Assembly: GCF_028275115.1 (NCBI RefSeq)
Contig: NZ_JAQCNH010000078.1
Location: forward strand, 1 to 64,000
From: Halorientalis sp.
GTDB lineage: Archaea > Halobacteriota > Halobacteria > Halobacteriales > Haloarculaceae
Direction: 5' to 3'
DNA length: 64,000 bases
Of the stretch, positions 8,210-17,831 are shown in pieces. How positions within the stretch are numbered: position 1 is the stretch's first letter; each line of letters begins with the position of its first letter. A program made the position numbers and the translations under genes. The notes under the pieces were generated by a model. It was not told where the DNA came from. It did no database searches and saw only the letters and a program-made list of their open reading frames with translations.

Positions 8210-8217
8210 TTTTAATA
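8210..8217 (+). promoter_or_regulatory. TATA box of the argG leader transcript
   Basis: TTTTAATA is centred about 28 bp before the ATG at 8242, so transcription should begin at or next to that ATG. This places 250 nt of transcribed leader before argG. There is no other convincing TATA box between here and argG. Confidence 0.65.
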
Positions 8218-8241
8218 CGAATCCGCGGTAGTAGCAGGTAC

Positions 8242-8391
8242 ATGACACAGACCTACGGTACCGGCCCGCTGCCGAGCGAGGCCGGAGGGTCTGTCCACAT
8301 TCTCCCACAATCGCGAGAGCACCAGCCGTCGGCTGGTGACACGTCTGAACGTCGGGCACTCCGACGGCGTTTCCGACGACGGGGCCGTTAG
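8242..8391 (+). CDS. Arginine-rich leader peptide ORF upstream of argG
   Basis: A 49-codon ORF starting MTQTYGTGPLPSE and ending SERRALRRRFRRRGR. Nine of its last 13 codons are arginine, in CGT, CGG and CGA. Its ATG sits at the expected leaderless start of the argG transcript. Its stop codon lies in a small hairpin (GGGCC/GGCCC, 8382-8395) that precedes a longer one before argG. Arginine codons clustered before a hairpin, ahead of arginine genes, are the classical layout of an attenuation leader. Arginine-rich frames also arise by chance in GC-rich DNA, so translation is unproven. The peptide itself need not have a function. Confidence 0.45.
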   Translation: MTQTYGTGPLPSEAGGSVHILPQSREHQPSAGDTSERRALRRRFRRRGR

Positions 8392-8461
8392 GCCCACCTC
8401 ACTCCCACTTCATACCACGGTCGTTTCGTCTCGAACCGCCCACCGACTGGTGCTGGGCGGT
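8320..8461 (+). promoter_or_regulatory. Four-hairpin structured leader of argG (candidate attenuator)
   Basis: Four perfect hairpins follow one another: CACCAGCC/GGCTGGTG (8320-8338, loop 3), CGTCGG/CCGACG (8350-8366, loop 5), GGGCC/GGCCC (8382-8395, loop 4) and ACCGCCCA/TGGGCGGT (8435-8461, loop 11). The left arm of the first (CACCAG) can also pair with CTGGTG in the loop of the fourth, giving a possible competing fold. The first three overlap the arginine-rich ORF, so ribosome position could choose between folds. No known riboswitch class is recognised. Confidence 0.45.
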
Positions 8462-8492
8462 CCGCACCGCCTCGACTCATCACACAACACAC

Positions 8493-9803
8493 ATGCCAGA
8501 ACCCAACGACACCGAAGGAACGGTCGCGCTCGCCTTCTCCGGCGGGCTCGACACGACAGTCTGTGTACCGCTACTGAAAGACGAGTACGGCTACGACGAC
8601 GTGATCGGCGTCACCGTCGACGTCGGCCAGCCGGCCGAGGAGTTCGACGAGGCCGAGGAAACCGCCGAGGCACTGGGCCTCGATCACTACGTCGTCGACG
8701 CGAAAGCCGAGTTCGCCGACCTCTGTATGGATGCCGTCAAGGCAAACGCCACGTACCAGGGCTACCCGCTCGGGACCGCGCTGGCCCGCCCGGTCATCGC
8801 CGCCGCGATTCTCGGAGTCGCTGAGGAGCAGGACTGTACCGCCCTGGCTCACGGCTGTACCGGGAAAGGCAACGACCAGCTCCGCTTCGAGACGGTCTGG
8901 CGCGACTCGGACATGGACGTCCACGCGCCCGTTCGCGAACTCGGCCTGACCCGCGAGTGGGAACAGGAGTACGCCGAGGAAAAGAACCTGCCCGTCGAAG
9001 GTGGCGACGGCGGCCGCTGGAGCATCGACACGAACCTCTGGAGCCGTTCGGTCGAGGGCTCGGAACTGGAAGACCCCAGCCACGTTCCCGGCGACGAAAT
9101 ATACGAGTGGACGGCGAGTCCCAGCGGCAAAGCGGCCGAACTCGTCGACGTCGAGTTCGAGGAGGGCGAGGTCGTCGCCATCGACGGCGAGGCGCTGAGC
9201 CCCGTCGCGGTCATCGAACAACTGAACGAGCAGGCCGGCGCACACGGCATCGGGCGCACCGACACGATGGAAGACCGGATGCTCGGGCTCAAGGTACGCG
9301 AGAACTACGAACACCCCGCGGCCACGGTACTCCTGGCGGCCCACGACGCTCTCGAAGGACTCGTCCTCACCGAGGAAGAGCGGAGTTTCAAAACAGGAAT
9401 CGATCAGGAGTGGGCCGAGAAGGGGTACCAGGGGCTGGTGAACGCCCCTCTCTTCCGCGCGCTCGAAGGGTTCATCGAAGAGACCCAGACACGCGTCACC
9501 GGCACCGTTACGGTCAAACTCGAGGGCGGGCAGGCCCGTCCGGTCGCCCGCGAGAGCGAGTACGCCTGCTACGCGGAGGGACAGGCCTCGTTCAATACCG
9601 AAGCGGTCACAGACGACATCGAACAGGCCGACGCGACCGGCGTCGCCAAGTACCACGGCTTCCAGGAACGCCTGGCAAACACGGTCAGCGAGGCCGTCGA
9701 CAGCGCGGCCGCCGAGGCCGTGACGGACGGGGGTCCTGCGAACGACGCGAGCGGGACGTCGTCGGACGGACCGTCCGACGGAAGCGCCGAACCCGAGGAG
9801 TAG
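8493..9803 (+). CDS. argG: Argininosuccinate synthase
   Basis: A 436-aa enzyme that joins citrulline and aspartate using ATP, the penultimate step of arginine synthesis. The ATP-pyrophosphatase P-loop is AFSGGLDT (residues 14-21). Other family blocks include AHGCTGKGNDQLRFE and RWSIDTNLWSRSVEG. Length to about residue 400 is typical; the last 40 residues are a low-complexity Ala/Gly/Ser/Asp/Glu tail. It is followed after 4 bp by argH. It has a 250-nt leader with its own arginine-rich ORF and hairpins, suggesting feedback on arginine supply. Confidence 0.97.
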   Translation: MPEPNDTEGTVALAFSGGLDTTVCVPLLKDEYGYDDVIGVTVDVGQPAEEFDEAEETAEALGLDHYVVDAKAEFADLCMDAVKANATYQGYPLGTALARPVIAAAILGVAEEQDCTALAHGCTGKGNDQLRFETVWRDSDMDVHAPVRELGLTREWEQEYAEEKNLPVEGGDGGRWSIDTNLWSRSVEGSELEDPSHVPGDEIYEWTASPSGKAAELVDVEFEEGEVVAIDGEALSPVAVIEQLNEQAGAHGIGRTDTMEDRMLGLKVRENYEHPAATVLLAAHDALEGLVLTEEERSFKTGIDQEWAEKGYQGLVNAPLFRALEGFIEETQTRVTGTVTVKLEGGQARPVARESEYACYAEGQASFNTEAVTDDIEQADATGVAKYHGFQERLANTVSEAVDSAAAEAVTDGGPANDASGTSSDGPSDGSAEPEE

Positions 9804-9807
9804 ACTC

Positions 9808-11370
9808 ATGACCGAGGAACCCACCGACGGCGAGGCGGACGAGACCGGCGACACCGTCGGGGTAGGCTCCGACGAGCCCCCGGTCGCTGACGCTCCTGGA
9901 GACGTGGTCCGCCGGGACCGGTTCAGCGGTGGCCCCGCCCGTGGGTTCCTCTCCTCGCTCGCGGCCGACGAGCGCATCTTCGCCGCGGACCTGGCGGTCG
10001 ACCGCGCCCACGTCGTGATGCTGGCCGAGCAGGGCATCGTCGATACTGGCGACGCCGGCGCCATTCTCGCGGCGCTGGACGACATCGAAGCGGCAGGACA
10101 CGGTGCCCTCCCCCAGGGCGAAGACGTTCACGCGGCCATCGAGACGGCAGTAATCGAACGCGTCGGGCCCGAGGGTGGCCGAATGCACACTGCCCGGTCG
10201 CGCAACGACGAGGTGGCAACCTGTATCCGCTACCGCCTGCGCGGGGACCTACTCAACGCGATTGCGGCCGTCGTCGGCGCACGTGAACAACTGCTCGACG
10301 AGGCCGACGAGCACGCGGCGACGCTGATGCCTGGGTTCACCCACCTCCAGTACGCTCAGCCGACGACGGTGGGCCACTACCTGCTCTCCTACGAGCGGTC
10401 GCTGGCCCGCGACACCGAGCGGTTGTTCGACGCGTACGCGCGAACGAACCGCTCACCGCTGGGTGGGGCGGCGTTCGCCGGGACGCCGTTCGGTATCGAC
10501 CGCGAGCGGACCGCCGAGCTACTCGGCTTCGATTCGGTACTGGCCAACTCGATGGACGGCGCGTCCGCACGCGACTTCCTGCTGGAGGCGACGACGGCGC
10601 TCTCGAACCTGGCGACGACGCTCTCGGGACTCAGCGAAGACGTCGTAATGTTCGCCAGTGACGGGTACCTCGACCTGAGCGACGACTACGCCTCTACGTC
10701 GTCGATCATGCCGCAAAAAAAGAACCCGGACACGCTGGAGCTAGTGCGGGCACGGGCCGGCGACGCACACAGCGCGGTTTCGGGCCTGCTGACGACGCTG
10801 AAGGGCCTGCCACGTGCTTACAACCGCGACCTCCAGCGGGCGGGCCAGTACGGCTGGGACGCCGTCGACGCGGTGATCGGGGCCACCGAGGTCGCGGCCG
10901 GCGCGGTCGCGACCGCCGACTGGAACGTCGAGAGACTCGCCGAGGAGGCCAGTGCAGGCTTCTCGACGGCGACGGGCGTCGCGGACCTGCTGGCGATGGA
11001 GGGGCTTCCCTTCCGGACAGCACACGAACTCGTGGCCAATGCCGCGGACCGGTCGGCCGACCCTGACTACGAGACGCTGGACGCAGCGGCACAGGCGCTT
11101 CTCGGCGAGTCGCTGTCGGCGTTCGTCGACGGCGAGGCCTCGGAACAGGCGAGCGACGAGAGCCGCGCAGCCGTCGAAGCCGCTCTTGACCCCGCCGAGA
11201 GCGTGGCGAGTCGTGACTCGGCCGGCGGGCCAGCACCCGGCGCGGTGGCCGACCAGTTGGCCTCGGCACGGGGCGACCTCGACGCCGACCACGATGCGCT
11301 GGGGGAGCGCCGGGCCGCGCTGGCCGACGCCGAGGACCGACTCCGCGACGAGGTGGCCGGCTATGTCTGA
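9808..11370 (+). CDS. argH: Argininosuccinate lyase
   Basis: A 520-aa fumarase/aspartase-superfamily lyase that splits argininosuccinate into arginine and fumarate. Visible blocks are HTARSRNDEVATC (about residues 128-140), THLQYAQPTTVGHYLL (about 175) and the signature SSIMPQKKNPD (about 298-308), which carries the catalytic serine loop. The first 25 residues are an acidic extension typical of halophiles. It follows argG directly and is probably co-transcribed. The next genes of the pathway have their own promoter region at about 11566. Confidence 0.96.
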   Translation: MTEEPTDGEADETGDTVGVGSDEPPVADAPGDVVRRDRFSGGPARGFLSSLAADERIFAADLAVDRAHVVMLAEQGIVDTGDAGAILAALDDIEAAGHGALPQGEDVHAAIETAVIERVGPEGGRMHTARSRNDEVATCIRYRLRGDLLNAIAAVVGAREQLLDEADEHAATLMPGFTHLQYAQPTTVGHYLLSYERSLARDTERLFDAYARTNRSPLGGAAFAGTPFGIDRERTAELLGFDSVLANSMDGASARDFLLEATTALSNLATTLSGLSEDVVMFASDGYLDLSDDYASTSSIMPQKKNPDTLELVRARAGDAHSAVSGLLTTLKGLPRAYNRDLQRAGQYGWDAVDAVIGATEVAAGAVATADWNVERLAEEASAGFSTATGVADLLAMEGLPFRTAHELVANAADRSADPDYETLDAAAQALLGESLSAFVDGEASEQASDESRAAVEAALDPAESVASRDSAGGPAPGAVADQLASARGDLDADHDALGERRAALADAEDRLRDEVAGYV

Positions 11371-11565
11371 GTTCCGACCCGTTCGCAGGCGACGCGAACG
11401 TCCACGACGTCGGGACGTAGCGGCCCCCCCGCCGCGACCGCGACCCCCGCGAGGGGAAAAAATACCAGAACCATGATACAGCGTTCATGAAATGCCGCTC
11501 AGAAGGATTACGAAGCGGTTAGAAGGTAGTTTGGGTCGTTAATTCTGCTCGACAAGTCCGAAGGG

Positions 11566-11570
11566 TTTAA
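11566..11570 (+). promoter_or_regulatory. TATA element before argW
   Basis: GGGTTTAAGTGG lies about 32 bp before the argW ATG and 230 bp after argH. It suggests that argW-X-C-B-D-E-F forms a second transcription unit, separately controlled from argGH. The rest of 11371-11565 holds a GC-rich run and an AT-rich stretch (GGGGAAAAAATACC at about 11454), with no gene that I can support. Confidence 0.45.
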
Positions 11571-11599
11571 GTGGTAACGAGCGTGAGATGGAGGTACCA

Positions 11600-11764
11600 A
11601 TGACCGAATGCATCGAGTGCGGGGCCGACGTGTCTCTGCACGACGACTTGGAAGTGGGAGAGATCGTCGACTGTTCGACCTGCGGTGCAGAACTGGAAGT
11701 CGTCGACACCGACCCGGTCGAGCTGGACTCGGCACCCGAGCTCGAAGAGGACTGGGGCGAGTAA
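11600..11764 (+). CDS. argW: ArgW/LysW amino-group carrier protein
   Basis: A 54-aa acidic carrier. It has a zinc ribbon with two CxxC pairs (CIECG and CSTCG) and ends in the diagnostic EDWGE, whose terminal glutamate accepts the substrate alpha-amino group. In haloarchaea lysine comes from diaminopimelate, so the partners here make ornithine and the arginine name fits. A second in-frame ATG at 11588 would add four residues (MEVP); the chosen ATG lies directly after GAGGTACCA. It heads the argWXCBDEF group. Confidence 0.93.
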   Translation: MTECIECGADVSLHDDLEVGEIVDCSTCGAELEVVDTDPVELDSAPELEEDWGE

Positions 11765-11796: not shown

Positions 11797-11918
11797 ATGA
11801 ACACGATAACAGCAGCACTGTCATCAGCACGACACCGCGACCAGAGGTGGCTCGGTTGAACACCGTCGCACGCAGAGCGAGCAACGTGCTCGCGTTCATG
11901 CCGGAGGGATTCACGTGA
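11797..11918 (+). other. Two tiny overlapping ORFs between argW and argX
   Basis: An ATG at 11797, after an AAAATATG stretch, opens a 20-codon frame ending HRDQRWLG. Its TGA overlaps a TTG that opens a second 20-codon frame (LNTVARRAS...EGFT), whose TGA overlaps the GTG of argX. The chain of overlaps could translationally couple argX, but TTG starts are weak and the peptides have no recognisable features. The same gap has a GGCCG/CGGCC hairpin at about 11773-11787. Confidence 0.2.
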
Positions 11919-12829
11919 ATTTCGGAATACTCTATTCGCGCATCCGCAAAGACGAGAAGCTCCTCCTCTCGGAGCTTCGTGACCGGGGCCACGACGTCAC
12001 GAAAATCGACGTTCGCAACCAGCAGTTCGGACTGTCCGAGTCGCCCGCTGACTTCGCTGGCGTCGACCTCGTGGTCGACCGGTGTCTCGCGACCAGTCGG
12101 AGTGTCTACGCCACACAGTTCGTCGACGCCGACGACGTCCCCATCGTCAACCATCCCGACACCGCCGAACTGTGTGCCGACAAGGCGAAAACCAGCCTCG
12201 CTCTGGCCGAGAACGACGTGCCCACGCCAGAGACGACCGTCGCGTTCACCACGGACGCGGCCATGGCGGCCATCGAGGCGTTCGGGTATCCCTGCGTTCT
12301 CAAGCCGGTCGTCGGCTCGTGGGGCCGCCTGATGGCCAAGATCGACAGCCGGACGGCCGCCGAGGCCATCCTCGAACACAAGGAGACGCTGGGCCACTAC
12401 GAACACAAGGTGTTCTACGTCCAGGAGTACGTCGAGAAAGGCGGCGAGGACATCCGCGTTCTCGCCACTGACGGCGACCCCGTCGCCGCGATGGTCCGCT
12501 CCTCGGACCACTGGATCACCAACGCTGCCAAAGGGGCCGAGACCGACGCGTTCGGCCTCGACGACGAGGCACTCGACCTGGTCGAACGCGCCTCTGACGC
12601 CGTAGGTGGCGGCCTGCTCGGCGTGGATCTGATGGGAACTGGAGCCGGTCCCGAGGACGGGTCGGGGAGTAACCAGATGGAGTCTGGCCCGCGGTACACC
12701 GTCCACGAGGTCAACCACACCGTCGAGTTCAAGGCGCTGAACGAGGCGACGGACGTGGACGTGCCCGCTCGCGTCGTCGACTGGCTGGAGACGAAGGCCG
12801 AGCAACAACAGGGGGTGAACGCCCGATGA
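11915..12829 (+). CDS. argX: Glutamate-ArgW ligase (LysX/ArgX, ATP-grasp)
   Basis: A 304-aa RimK/LysX-type ATP-grasp ligase that attaches glutamate to the terminal carboxylate of ArgW, protecting its amino group. Visible are NHPDTAELCADKAKTS (about residues 77-92), KPVVGSWGRLMAKI (about 131-144), QEYVEKGGEDIRV (about 170) and the metal-binding end VHEVNHTVEFK. The GTG at 11915 is chosen because GGAGGG lies 7 bp upstream. It overlaps argC by ATGA. Confidence 0.93.
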   Translation: MNFGILYSRIRKDEKLLLSELRDRGHDVTKIDVRNQQFGLSESPADFAGVDLVVDRCLATSRSVYATQFVDADDVPIVNHPDTAELCADKAKTSLALAENDVPTPETTVAFTTDAAMAAIEAFGYPCVLKPVVGSWGRLMAKIDSRTAAEAILEHKETLGHYEHKVFYVQEYVEKGGEDIRVLATDGDPVAAMVRSSDHWITNAAKGAETDAFGLDDEALDLVERASDAVGGGLLGVDLMGTGAGPEDGSGSNQMESGPRYTVHEVNHTVEFKALNEATDVDVPARVVDWLETKAEQQQGVNAR

Positions 12830-13875
12830 GTACGGATTCCTCGCTGACCGCCTCCGTCGTGGGCGGCACCGGCTTCACTGGCGGTGAACTCCTGCGCCTG
12901 CTGGCCGGGCACCCCGAGTTCGAGGTCGTCCAGGCGACGAGTCGCTCCAAAGCCAACAAAACGGTCGGGCACCAGCACCCCAACCTGCGACATCTGGACC
13001 TGCGCTTCTCCGAACCCGACGATCTGGAGTCGGTCGACGCGCTGTTCGCCGCGACGCCCCACGGCGTCACGATGGAACAGATCGACGAGTTCCGCGACGC
13101 CGCTGGCACCGTCGTCGACCTGTCGGCGGATTTCCGACTCGACACCGAAGCGCAGTACGACGAGTGGTACGACGGCCACAGCCGGTCCGAACTGCTTGAA
13201 AAGGCCGAGTACGCTCTCCCCGAACTGAACCGAGAGCGCCTCGAAGGAGCCGAAATCGTCGCCTCGGGCGGCTGTAACGCCACCGCGACGATTCTCGGAC
13301 TCCTGCCCCTGTTCGAACAGGGCGTGCTGGACGGCGACGAGCGGATCGTCGTCGACGTGAAGGTCGGGTCCTCTGAGGGTGGTGCCGGCGGCGGGGAGGC
13401 CTCCAGCCACCCCGAGCGGTCCGGCGTTGTCCGGCCGTACGCGCCGACGGGCCACCGGCACGAGGCCGAGATCCAGCAGTTCCTCGGCGTCGAGGTGTCC
13501 TTTACCGTTCACGCGGTGGAGATGACCCGCGGCGCGAGCGCGACCTGCCACGTCTTCCCCGACGGTCCCGTCTCGAAGGGCGACCTGTGGGGGGCGTATC
13601 GCAGCCAGTACCAAGACGAACCGTTCGTCGAACTCGTCGCGGGTGGGGGTGGCGTCTACCGCTACCCCGAGCCCAAAGCTGTCGCGGGGACGAATCGTGC
13701 GGAGGTCGGCTTCGAACTCGACCCCGGCAACGGGCGGCTGGTCGTGTTTTCGGCTATCGACAACATGATGAAAGGCTCGGCCGGCCAGGCCGTCCACGCC
13801 GCGAACGTCGCGCTTGGCCTCGACGAGACGGCGGGCCTTTCGTTTCAGGGCCTGCATCCCGTGGGTTCCCCGTAG
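12826..13875 (+). CDS. argC: [ArgW]-glutamyl-phosphate reductase (ArgC/LysY)
   Basis: A 349-aa NAD(P)-dependent semialdehyde dehydrogenase-type reductase. The Rossmann glycine motif is VVGGTGFTGGELLRLL (about residues 11-26). The catalytic cysteine is in ASGGCNATATILGL (about residue 149). The conserved basic motif is RPYAPTGHRHEAEI, and HAVEMTRG follows. It reduces the carrier-bound glutamyl phosphate to the semialdehyde. It begins inside the argX stop and is followed after 18 bp by argB. Confidence 0.94.
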   Translation: MSTDSSLTASVVGGTGFTGGELLRLLAGHPEFEVVQATSRSKANKTVGHQHPNLRHLDLRFSEPDDLESVDALFAATPHGVTMEQIDEFRDAAGTVVDLSADFRLDTEAQYDEWYDGHSRSELLEKAEYALPELNRERLEGAEIVASGGCNATATILGLLPLFEQGVLDGDERIVVDVKVGSSEGGAGGGEASSHPERSGVVRPYAPTGHRHEAEIQQFLGVEVSFTVHAVEMTRGASATCHVFPDGPVSKGDLWGAYRSQYQDEPFVELVAGGGGVYRYPEPKAVAGTNRAEVGFELDPGNGRLVVFSAIDNMMKGSAGQAVHAANVALGLDETAGLSFQGLHPVGSP

Positions 13876-13893: not shown

Positions 13894-14721
13894 ATGAGAG
13901 TAACTATCAAAGTCGGTGGCGCTCGCGCGGTCAACCCCGCAGGTGCCCTTTCGGATGTCGCATCACTGTACGACGACGGTGAGGACGTGGCGGTCGTCCA
14001 CGGCGGGTCGACCGCCGTCGACGACACGCTGGAACGACTCGGTATCGAACCGGAGTACGTCGAGACCCCGAGCGGCGTCGTCGGTCGGTTCACCGACGCC
14101 GAGACGATGGAGGTGTTCGAGATGGTCTTCGGCCACCTCAGTACGCAGCTGGTCGCGGGCCTGCAGAGCCTCGACGTGGATGCCGTCGGACTCAACGGCG
14201 TCGACGGGAAGCTCCTCCACGGTCCCCGGAAGTCCGCCGTTCGGGTCGTCGAGGACGGCAAAAAAAAGATCAGGCGAGGCGACCACTCCGGGACGATCGA
14301 ACAGGTCAACGGCGACCTGCTCGAGTCGCTCCTCTCGGACGGCTACGTCCCGGTTGCGGCCCCGCCGATGGCCGGCGCCGATGCCGAGGATGTACTCCCC
14401 GTCAATACGGACGCCGACCGGTCGGCGGCGGCCATCTCGAGCGAACTCGGTGGCACCCTCCTCCTGCTGACGGACGTGGCGGGCGTCTTCGAGGACCCCG
14501 ACGACCCCGACACGCTGATCGAGACCGTCGAGACGGGCGAGGAGTGGGCCGGGTTGGAGACGGCCGCCGAAGGCTTCATGAGCCGGAAGATTATGGCGGC
14601 GGAGGAGGCCCTCGACGGCGGGGCCGACGAGGTCGTAATCGCGGACGCCAACACCGACGAGCCGGTCCTCTCGGCTCTCTCCGGTGGCGGCACACACCTG
14701 TACCAGGAGGCACTACAATGA
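13894..14721 (+). CDS. argB: [ArgW]-glutamate kinase (ArgB/LysZ)
   Basis: A 275-aa amino-acid kinase. It begins with the lysine-glycine motif VTIKVGGARAVNP (about residues 3-15), then VVHGGSTAVDDTLERLG (about 34-50), the substrate loop VVGRFTDAETM, and PVNTDADRSAAAIS (about 170). It phosphorylates the gamma-carboxylate of carrier-bound glutamate. An AT-rich AGATTTTTC sits directly before the start. It overlaps argD by ATGA. Confidence 0.94.
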   Translation: MRVTIKVGGARAVNPAGALSDVASLYDDGEDVAVVHGGSTAVDDTLERLGIEPEYVETPSGVVGRFTDAETMEVFEMVFGHLSTQLVAGLQSLDVDAVGLNGVDGKLLHGPRKSAVRVVEDGKKKIRRGDHSGTIEQVNGDLLESLLSDGYVPVAAPPMAGADAEDVLPVNTDADRSAAAISSELGGTLLLLTDVAGVFEDPDDPDTLIETVETGEEWAGLETAAEGFMSRKIMAAEEALDGGADEVVIADANTDEPVLSALSGGGTHLYQEALQ

Positions 14722-16940: not shown

Positions 16941-17831
16941 ATGGTGCGCGCGCTGCTAGACGTCGACGACCTGACCGGCGAGGAGCTGACCACCGTTCTC
17001 GACCGCGCCGCCGAACTGAAGACGGCCGACGACGGTCGGCAACCGCTGGTCGACCGGACGCTCGGGATGATCTTCGAGAAGCCGTCGACCCGGACTCGCG
17101 TCTCCTTCGAGACCGGGATGACCAAGCTCGGTGGTCACGCCATCTTCCTCGGCCCGGACGACATCCACCTCGGACACGGCGAGCCGATCAGAGACACGGC
17201 CCGCGCAGTGTCACGGTACGTCGACTTCATTATGGCCCGCGTGTTCGACCACGCAGACGTCGTGGAACTGGGCGAGTACGCGACCGTGCCGGTCATCAAC
17301 GGGTTGACCGACGACGCCCACCCGTGCCAGACTCTCGCAGACCTGCTGACGATCCGCGAGCGGTTCGGCGACTTCGACGTGGACGTCGCCTGGGTCGGCG
17401 ACGGCAACAACGTCGCCCAGTCGTTCGTGCTGGGCGCGGCGATGGCCGGCGTCGACCTGACGGTCGCCACGCCGGCGGGGTACGGTATCGACGACGGCGT
17501 CCGCAAACGCGCGGCCGGCCTCGGCGGCGTACCCGAGACGACGACGGACCCCGAGGCGGCGGTCGAAGACGCCGACGTGGTGTACACGGACGTGTGGGTC
17601 AGCATGGGCCAGGAGGACCAGCGCGAGCAGAAACTCGCCGACTTCGACGGCTTTCAGGTCACATCCGACCTGCTCGGTGACCGGCCGCTGATGCACTGCC
17701 TGCCGGCCCACCGCGGCGAGGAAGTGACCGACGAGGCCCTGGAAAGCGAGAACGCGATCGTCTGGGACCAGGCGGAGAACCGGATGCACGCCCAGAACGG
17801 ACTGTTAGTCTGGCTGTCCGAGCAGAACTGA
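16941..17831 (+). CDS. argF: Ornithine carbamoyltransferase
   Basis: A 296-aa transferase making citrulline from ornithine and carbamoyl phosphate. The carbamoyl-phosphate motif is EKPSTRTRVSFE (about residues 43-54), with HPCQTLADLLTI (about 128-139), VSMGQE (about 216) and HCLPAHRGEEVTDE (about 250). Length is slightly short of bacterial enzymes. It closes the arginine cluster. Together with ArgG and ArgH it completes the path from glutamate to arginine without leaving this locus. Confidence 0.95.
   Translation: MVRALLDVDDLTGEELTTVLDRAAELKTADDGRQPLVDRTLGMIFEKPSTRTRVSFETGMTKLGGHAIFLGPDDIHLGHGEPIRDTARAVSRYVDFIMARVFDHADVVELGEYATVPVINGLTDDAHPCQTLADLLTIRERFGDFDVDVAWVGDGNNVAQSFVLGAAMAGVDLTVATPAGYGIDDGVRKRAAGLGGVPETTTDPEAAVEDADVVYTDVWVSMGQEDQREQKLADFDGFQVTSDLLGDRPLMHCLPAHRGEEVTDEALESENAIVWDQAENRMHAQNGLLVWLSEQN

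Follow-up and report, generated by a model that had tools for sequence, protein, structure and literature searches.

Leader-peptide attenuators of bacteria also use rare codons, and rare codons are a mark of sensitive attenuators. In the Rho-dependent tnaC system, whether a termination factor can reach the unstructured RNA beyond the stop codon depends on a ribosome located at the leader's end, as is proposed here for an archaeal leader. However, in tnaC the amino acid is sensed by an arrested peptide and a catabolic operon is induced, and archaea use FttA rather than Rho. The fungal arginine attenuator peptide is encoded by an upstream ORF (uORF) that controls an arginine gene, and it acts through its conserved peptide sequence. 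In contrast, the peptide body of the haloarchaeal argG leader is free to vary, and it is the codons and a hairpin that are kept.

The bacterial trp, his, leu and ilv attenuators and the Corynebacterium ilvB-II motif (extracts of PMC10272879) resemble the argG leader in having an upstream leader ORF that contains codons for the product amino acid, and in having a hairpin near its stop codon. The argG leader differs from these systems in being archaeal, with a TATA promoter and a start codon that is probably at the start of the transcript. Moreover, its stop codon lies inside the hairpin, a G-free tract takes the place of a U-tract terminator, and a clear terminator/antiterminator pair is not seen across all loci. 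Leaderless Cys-rich uORFs of mycobacteria, for which attenuation has been proposed, likewise end in codons for the regulated amino acid (extracts of PMC4633059). These uORFs are bacterial, and the extracts describe neither a stop-codon hairpin nor a G-free tract. A literature search that covered few subscription journals found no attenuator of the leader-peptide type in archaea, haloarchaea included. Attenuation is also unmentioned in extracts of a study from 2023 on arginine genes in haloarchaea (PMC10433800), of a review on archaeal coupling (PMC8116511) and of a study of the Methanosarcina small proteome (PMC11456600). Because most subscription papers lie outside this search, its negative outcome is weak evidence of novelty.

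The argG leader lies within a 64,000-nucleotide stretch of Halorientalis DNA (the window), ahead of a cluster of arginine genes (Table 1). The nearest named relatives of this argG are those of Halorientalis, with 93% identity. An earlier note had pointed to a TATA box, an ATG at 8242, a 49-codon ORF that ends SERRALRRRFRRRGR with 9 Arg codons among its final 13, and four perfect hairpins at 8320-8338 (8 bp), 8350-8366 (6 bp), 8382-8395 and 8435-8461 (8 bp), and all of these are present base for base. The sequence CACCAG at 8320-8325 is complementary to CTGGTG at 8447-8452. The region 8242-8420 folds with z = -3.04, and equal stability was reached by 2 of 200 shuffles. The leader ORF has no match in Pfam. 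No Rfam family matches the window at its gathering score, and on this ground a riboswitch or T-box of an Rfam type was rejected. Separately, argH and argW are divided by a gap of ~217 nt (11371-11587), and argWXCBDEF may use a separate promoter beyond the reach of the leader. No second leader was found in this gap by the residue-blind scan described below.

Table 1. Features of the leader element and of the arginine gene cluster in the window.
Feature	Position	Strand	Basis
TATA box of the leader promoter, TTTTAATA	8210-8217	+	read from sequence
Leader ORF, 49 codons, probably leaderless	8242-8391	+	frame conserved, Arg/CGA enriched
Sensor tail with Arg codons	8350-8388	+	end of leader ORF
Leader stop codon, TAG	8389-8391	+	stem B loop and first base of right arm
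Stem A, whole	8247-8294	+	codon-permutation and arm-permutation tests
Stem A, left arm, ACAGACCT	8247-8254	+	
Stem A, right arm, GGGTCTGT	8287-8294	+	
Hairpins 1 and 2 of the earlier note, lineage-specific insertion, not core	8320-8366	+	
Stem B, GGGCC-GTTA-GGCCC	8382-8395	+	conserved across argG loci
G-free tract, 23 nt	8396-8418	+	read from sequence; conserved after stem B
Segment C, potential partner of Arg codons at 8375-8380	8420-8425	+	pairing test
Stem D (hairpin 4 of the earlier note)	8435-8461	+	permutation test, near-type loci
argG, argininosuccinate synthase	8493-9803	+	TIGR00032 and NF010392 over cut-off
argH, argininosuccinate lyase	9808-11370	+	TIGR00838 over cut-off
argW	11588-11764	+	NCBIfam match
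argX	11915-12829	+	NCBIfam match
argC	12826-13875	+	NCBIfam match
argB	13894-14721	+	NCBIfam match
argD	end 15857	+	NCBIfam match; ORF-list start too far upstream
argE/lysK	end 16939	+	NCBIfam match; ORF-list start too far upstream
argF	16941-17831	+	NCBIfam match

Regions upstream of argG were collected from 30 loci found by searching 58 whole genomes, 64 named loci and 40 further stretches, one of which is a placeholder. Among the first 94 (L001-L094), repeats (L031-L034), one region that is too short (L053), two with no start (L087 and L092) and two duplicates (L062 and L072) were left out, leaving 85. Removal of the placeholder (L131), two duplicates (L105 and L129) and L122, whose start was missed by the script, from the remaining 40 (L095-L134) gave 121 loci in total. 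The leader of L122 is visible by eye, although it is left out of the counts.

The leader element is judged present in 113 of these 121 loci, which come from haloarchaea and their relatives, and the start codon, frame, Arg codons and stop of the Arg-rich ORF are kept. Its conservation in close relatives, on which the earlier note had staked its proposal, was thus found. All 113 loci share a layout that consists of an AT box, a start codon ~33 nt on, an ORF whose last codons are rich in Arg, a GC hairpin (stem B) and a near-G-free tract. The start codon is ATG in 104 loci and GTG in 9. The leaders are 18-53 amino acids long (median 29), and their stop codons lie 71-184 nt upstream of argG. The AT-rich 8-mer has a median position of -33 relative to the start codon, a spacing that would put the start codon at the transcript's 5' end. 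The leader transcript thus probably starts at or near the start codon and would be leaderless.

The eight loci classed as lacking the element (L077, L079, L086 and L109-L113) include five from GTDB families coded f2, f9 and f11. One of the eight, L079, is an unclear case, with an Arg-rich ORF but without the stop-bearing hairpin. In L077 and L086, argG begins 3-6 nt after an upstream ORF and the Arg leader is absent, so it seems that argG has moved into a different operon.

Nine Halorientalis sequences conserve the TATA box, the ATG, the Arg-rich end, the stop codon and the GGGCC/GGCCC hairpin, and the middle of the ORF is variable. More generally, the body and length of the leader vary and only an Arg/Pro tail is retained, typically ending in RRRRPGR, PRPRPGL, RRRGR or RRRAL just before the stop codon. 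No peptide conserved over the whole leader ORF was found beyond this tail. Hairpins 1 and 2 of the earlier note lie in an insertion (8310-8366 in the window) that is shared by only two of the nine Halorientalis sequences, the window and G006. In G006 (locus L005) the insertion occupies the same place, and in both sequences these two hairpins lengthen the leader with its frame and stop intact. The proposed switch between CACCAG and CTGGTG fares no better, since G006 has AACCAG and a different hairpin 4 loop, and the pairing is lost. Because the insertion is lineage-specific, hairpins 1 and 2 and this switch were rejected as the core of the mechanism. Two conserved parts, a 5' stem (stem A) and the G-free tract, are absent from the earlier note's list.

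The reading frame of the leader is tied to stem B. When the start codon was picked solely by how far it lies from the best AT box, stem B contained the end of the resulting ORF in 84 of 112 loci, and in 7 others the ORF ended at most 12 nt beyond it (91/112 in total), with the remaining loci having no start codon (13) or an end elsewhere (8). The +1 and +2 frames ended in or just after stem B in 1 and 9 of the 112 loci, respectively. This 112-locus set excludes L038, whose hairpin does not contain the stop codon. Across all 113 loci the stop lies within the stem B hairpin in 102, and in 10 of the 11 exceptions, partly read by eye, it is just a few bases past the hairpin; L038 is the other exception. 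Where the phase between the Arg codons and stem B has shifted, a change in the loop often accompanies it and the stop is still in the hairpin (L002, L037, L042, L058 and L067).

Arginine makes up 44% of the final ten residues, compared with 13% elsewhere in the leaders of the 113 loci, and tails with just 2 Arg in ten residues occur in 7 loci. The choice of codon is also distinctive: CGA accounts for 65.6% of tail Arg codons (n=494), but only 16% in the rest of the leader (n=290) and 2.6% in argG bodies (n=1579). The final 13 codons of the window's leader contain three each of CGA, CGG and CGT, so that CGA provides 3/9 of the tail Arg codons, and argG, argH, argX and argC of the window together use CGA for 7 of 86 Arg codons. 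CGA could be retained partly for base pairing.

The element appears to be specific to argG. A sequence model of 50 positions (R1), which scores sequence only because its alignment gave no base pairs, was searched in 58 genomes. Its 43 strongest matches (E <= 0.0014) are one per genome and all lie directly before argG. The next match is not at argG (E 0.0018), and a further argG leader, in G045, follows at E 0.0033. The model overlooks members that were seen by direct reading in G018, G036, G044 and G052. A chance test required at least 3 Arg in the final 10 codons, together with an AT box and a stop placed in a GC hairpin. Of 121 argG upstream regions, 96 show this combination, compared with 7 of 1210 shuffles that preserve dinucleotides and 9 of 1836 slices of 400 nt from elsewhere in these loci. 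A residue-blind scan asked for an AT box, a short ORF and a hairpin of five or more GC pairs that holds the stop, followed by 15 nt with no more than one G. On both strands of the window, its sole match is the argG leader. In 86 further loci it returned ilvB leaders only, and in 400 kb of another genus it returned the argG and ilvB leaders, whose regions had been deliberately included, and one spurious match. Its sensitivity is 93/113 for argG leaders and 19/28 for clear ilvB leaders.

Alignment of the argG upstream regions, as the earlier note had suggested, revealed compensating changes in RNA helices. Stem B has GGGCC/GGCCC arms in 87 of 112 loci, and the other arms are mostly compensated (GGGGC/GCCCC, GGGTC/GACCC, GGCCC/GGGCC and ACCCC/GGGGT). 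Stem A differs in sequence between lineages and its pairing is retained. It beat all 20 codon permutations in 28 of 112 loci, where ~5 are expected, and its matched arms surpassed permuted arms in all 5000 trials, a test in which kinship is not corrected for. RNAalifold returned no structure for 52 diverse leaders.

For pairing further downstream, loci were divided into 65 near-type loci, in which the leader stop is at most 125 nt from argG and to which the window belongs, and 47 far-type loci. The region of the Arg codons can pair with a segment behind the tract (segment C), and in contiguous-helix tests without correction for kinship, permuted partners did as well in 2 of 5000 trials for near-type loci, 2223 of 5000 for far-type loci and 47 of 5000 for all 112. 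A previous test of pairing between the Arg tail and downstream sequence, in which the coordinates of stem B were wrong in some loci, was not significant (478/5000). Strong examples of the helix are CGCGACCG/CGGTCGCG in L029 and CGCGACG/CGTCGCG in L078. The corresponding helix in the window, GACGAC/GTCGTT, is weak, and it is stronger in relatives.

The tract that follows stem B is almost devoid of G. Over its first 17 nt, G occurs at 0-5% at 16 positions and at 12% at one (112 loci), compared with 32% upstream of the promoter, and a G-free run of at least 12 nt is present in 91 of 112 loci. A T stretch is the usual intergenic terminator motif in Haloferax, in which one tested hairpin also ended transcription, with 59% termination (extracts of PMC7237163). 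No T-stretch terminator is present in the tract, which is C-rich and in the window has a longest T run of 2. Of the 47 far-type loci, 34 have another AT-rich box (7-8 of 8) that precedes the argG ATG by 18-42 nt, versus 6 of 65 near-type loci. Far-type argG genes, such as those of L098 and L127, may therefore have an additional promoter of their own that yields a short-leader transcript. If so, the leader in those far-type species would govern the upstream promoter only.

The same leader layout is found upstream of ilvB in all eight Halorientalis genomes. For a wider survey of ilvB, 30 among the matches listed were taken as loci, and overall the leader is clear in 28 of 32 loci, weak in 1 and absent from 3. 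The window's own genome carries one (L140, on contig C56 of G000), and others are in L135-L142 and L176-L196. Most ilvB leader ORFs end in (I)IVGA followed by one residue or none. A hairpin of the GGGGC/GCCCC type carries the stop codon in its loop, and a G-poor tract comes next. In the tails, Ile is encoded by ATT in 70% of cases (n=46) versus 4.7% in ilvB bodies (n=661), and Val by GTA in 77% (n=35) versus 0.6% (n=1212). These codon counts cover 27 of the 32 loci, with L173-L175 (no leader), L187 (weak) and L189 (pattern missed) left out. The GTA codon of the ilvB leader doubles as part of the stem. No stem A was detected in ilv leaders, in which 0 of 27 beat all permutations.

Alignments of the regions before carA, hisG, trpC and thrC in the eight Halorientalis genomes contain no such leaders, and none was found upstream of leuA by the residue-blind scan, which is not fully sensitive. 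Other conserved features are present near some of these genes. At the start of leuA (L197-L204), a conserved 24-25-codon ORF, MSN..EGTS.SPADRVLPGHTGFHF followed by a stop, begins ~35-40 nt after a TATA box and overlaps leuA in a different frame. In L203 no ATG, GTG or TTG start is available to leuA in its own frame ahead of the overlapping ORF, which ends TTC TGA, and a +1 shift there would enter leuA. A programmed frameshift or an unusual start is possible for leuA. At the start of trpC, the eight genomes (L145-L152) share a strongly conserved block, CGCAAG.CTTATGTGCA...GT.CGT.A.TGTACAGTAATGGACG, that looks like a promoter with an operator. A conserved block upstream of carA, ACTTGAGGATT.CGAAATTCGTA (eight genomes, L165-L172), lies between carA and a conserved coding-like stretch of opposite orientation, and looks like an operator.

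The promoter, the frame, the choice of codons, stem B with its stop codon, the G-free tract, the single argG-only copy and the ilvB twin provide sequence-level support for an attenuator. We estimate a probability of roughly 0.75 that the argG leader is a ribosome-sensing attenuator of arginine genes that works as follows; the start of transcription, leader translation, arginine sensing, the direction of the switch and termination are what we infer from sequence. RNA polymerase would start at or just before the leader ATG, and a ribosome would load at the 5' end and translate the leader. Sensor codons, stop codon and hairpin are brought together at one site in this design. When charged Arg-tRNA is ample, the ribosome would pass the Arg codons, most of which are the rare CGA, melt stem B, stop inside it and depart. 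Stem B and the helix between the Arg codons and segment C would then form and leave the G-free tract bare, a fold that would be the off state in which argG expression from the leader transcript is cut off. When Arg-tRNA is scarce, the ribosome would halt over the Arg codons, a few bases short of stem B, covering the partners of segment C and blocking the ribosome-free fold, so that the arg genes are read. The ribosome-free fold is assigned to the off state because this is the simplest reading that fits a biosynthetic operon. Given an attenuator, we lean somewhat toward factor-dependent termination by FttA/aCPSF1 at or after the tract as its output. That a coupled ribosome excludes FttA is a published hypothesis, and no C-rich preference of FttA is named in the extracts of that work (PMC11616081). 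Several observations count against the attenuator as formulated here: the helix with segment C lacks support in far-type loci and is weak in the window, the tract is without a T stretch, many far-type loci have a candidate second promoter, a few tails are poor in Arg, CGA could owe part of its retention to pairing, and CGA is not the predominant Arg codon in the window's tail.

The same sensor could instead have a different output, either on initiation at argG (through stem D and re-initiation) or by cutting of the mRNA at the tract, with no termination. Stem D, which is the hairpin 4 that the earlier note had included in its switch, lies near argG and is retained in part of the near-type loci and not beyond them; permutations were as good in 8 of 5000 trials on 41 near-type loci, uncorrected for kinship. 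This and the missing T stretch for intrinsic termination favor such an output, whereas the parts conserved over the whole set end ~17 nt past stem B, and folding downstream over the whole set is only weakly non-random (mean z -0.46). We regard this alternative as unlikely, though worth keeping in view. It is quite improbable that arginine, rather than Arg-tRNA, is sensed by the nascent peptide within the ribosome, with arrest at the end of the leader. Many leaders do end in RPGR or similar, but the final residue is variable across the 113 loci (R 64, L 21, F 6, E 5, P 4, A 3 and others), a peptide sensor would be indifferent to the choice of rare codons, and the ilv twin combines this layout with a peptide of unrelated sequence.

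Other explanations assign the conserved sequence to a protein or to DNA. The ORF is conserved, and its product could be a small trans-acting protein rich in Arg. However, the body and length of the ORF vary while the tail alone is kept, it resembles no Pfam family, and its stop is tied to a hairpin, which makes this explanation very improbable. The prevalence of a single pair of arms suggests that stem B might be an operator palindrome in DNA, bound by a repressor, with an incidental ORF. Loop lengths between 3 and 8 nt disfavor a protein-binding palindrome, and the compensatory changes in the arms and the conservation of frame and stop also argue against it; we find an operator hardly credible. 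Finally, Arg-rich out-of-frame ORFs are frequent in GC-rich DNA, and spurious ORFs are numerous in the region, but the rarity of comparable arrangements in shuffles and other slices makes the probability of chance practically negligible.

The best reading of the sequences is that the ribosome-sensing argG leader is one of at least two haloarchaeal attenuators (arg and ilv). The odds seem even that these represent a family in which a leaderless ORF ends in synonymous codons seldom used in the operon, set at the base of a stop-bearing hairpin, and in which the G-free tract is a site for the archaeal termination factor. Because the layout can be searched for without knowledge of the amino acid, it offers a route to additional leaders, of which the one at ilvB is an example. 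Coupling of transcription to translation and factor-dependent termination in archaea have been posed as a hypothesis for testing (extracts of PMC11616081), and the argG leader, if it works as proposed, would provide a compact natural test of both. The family, if real, would provide the first known case in Archaea of ribosome-mediated attenuation by amino-acid supply, coupling translation to FttA-dependent termination, and with a working argG switch amino-acid attenuation would not be exclusive to bacteria.
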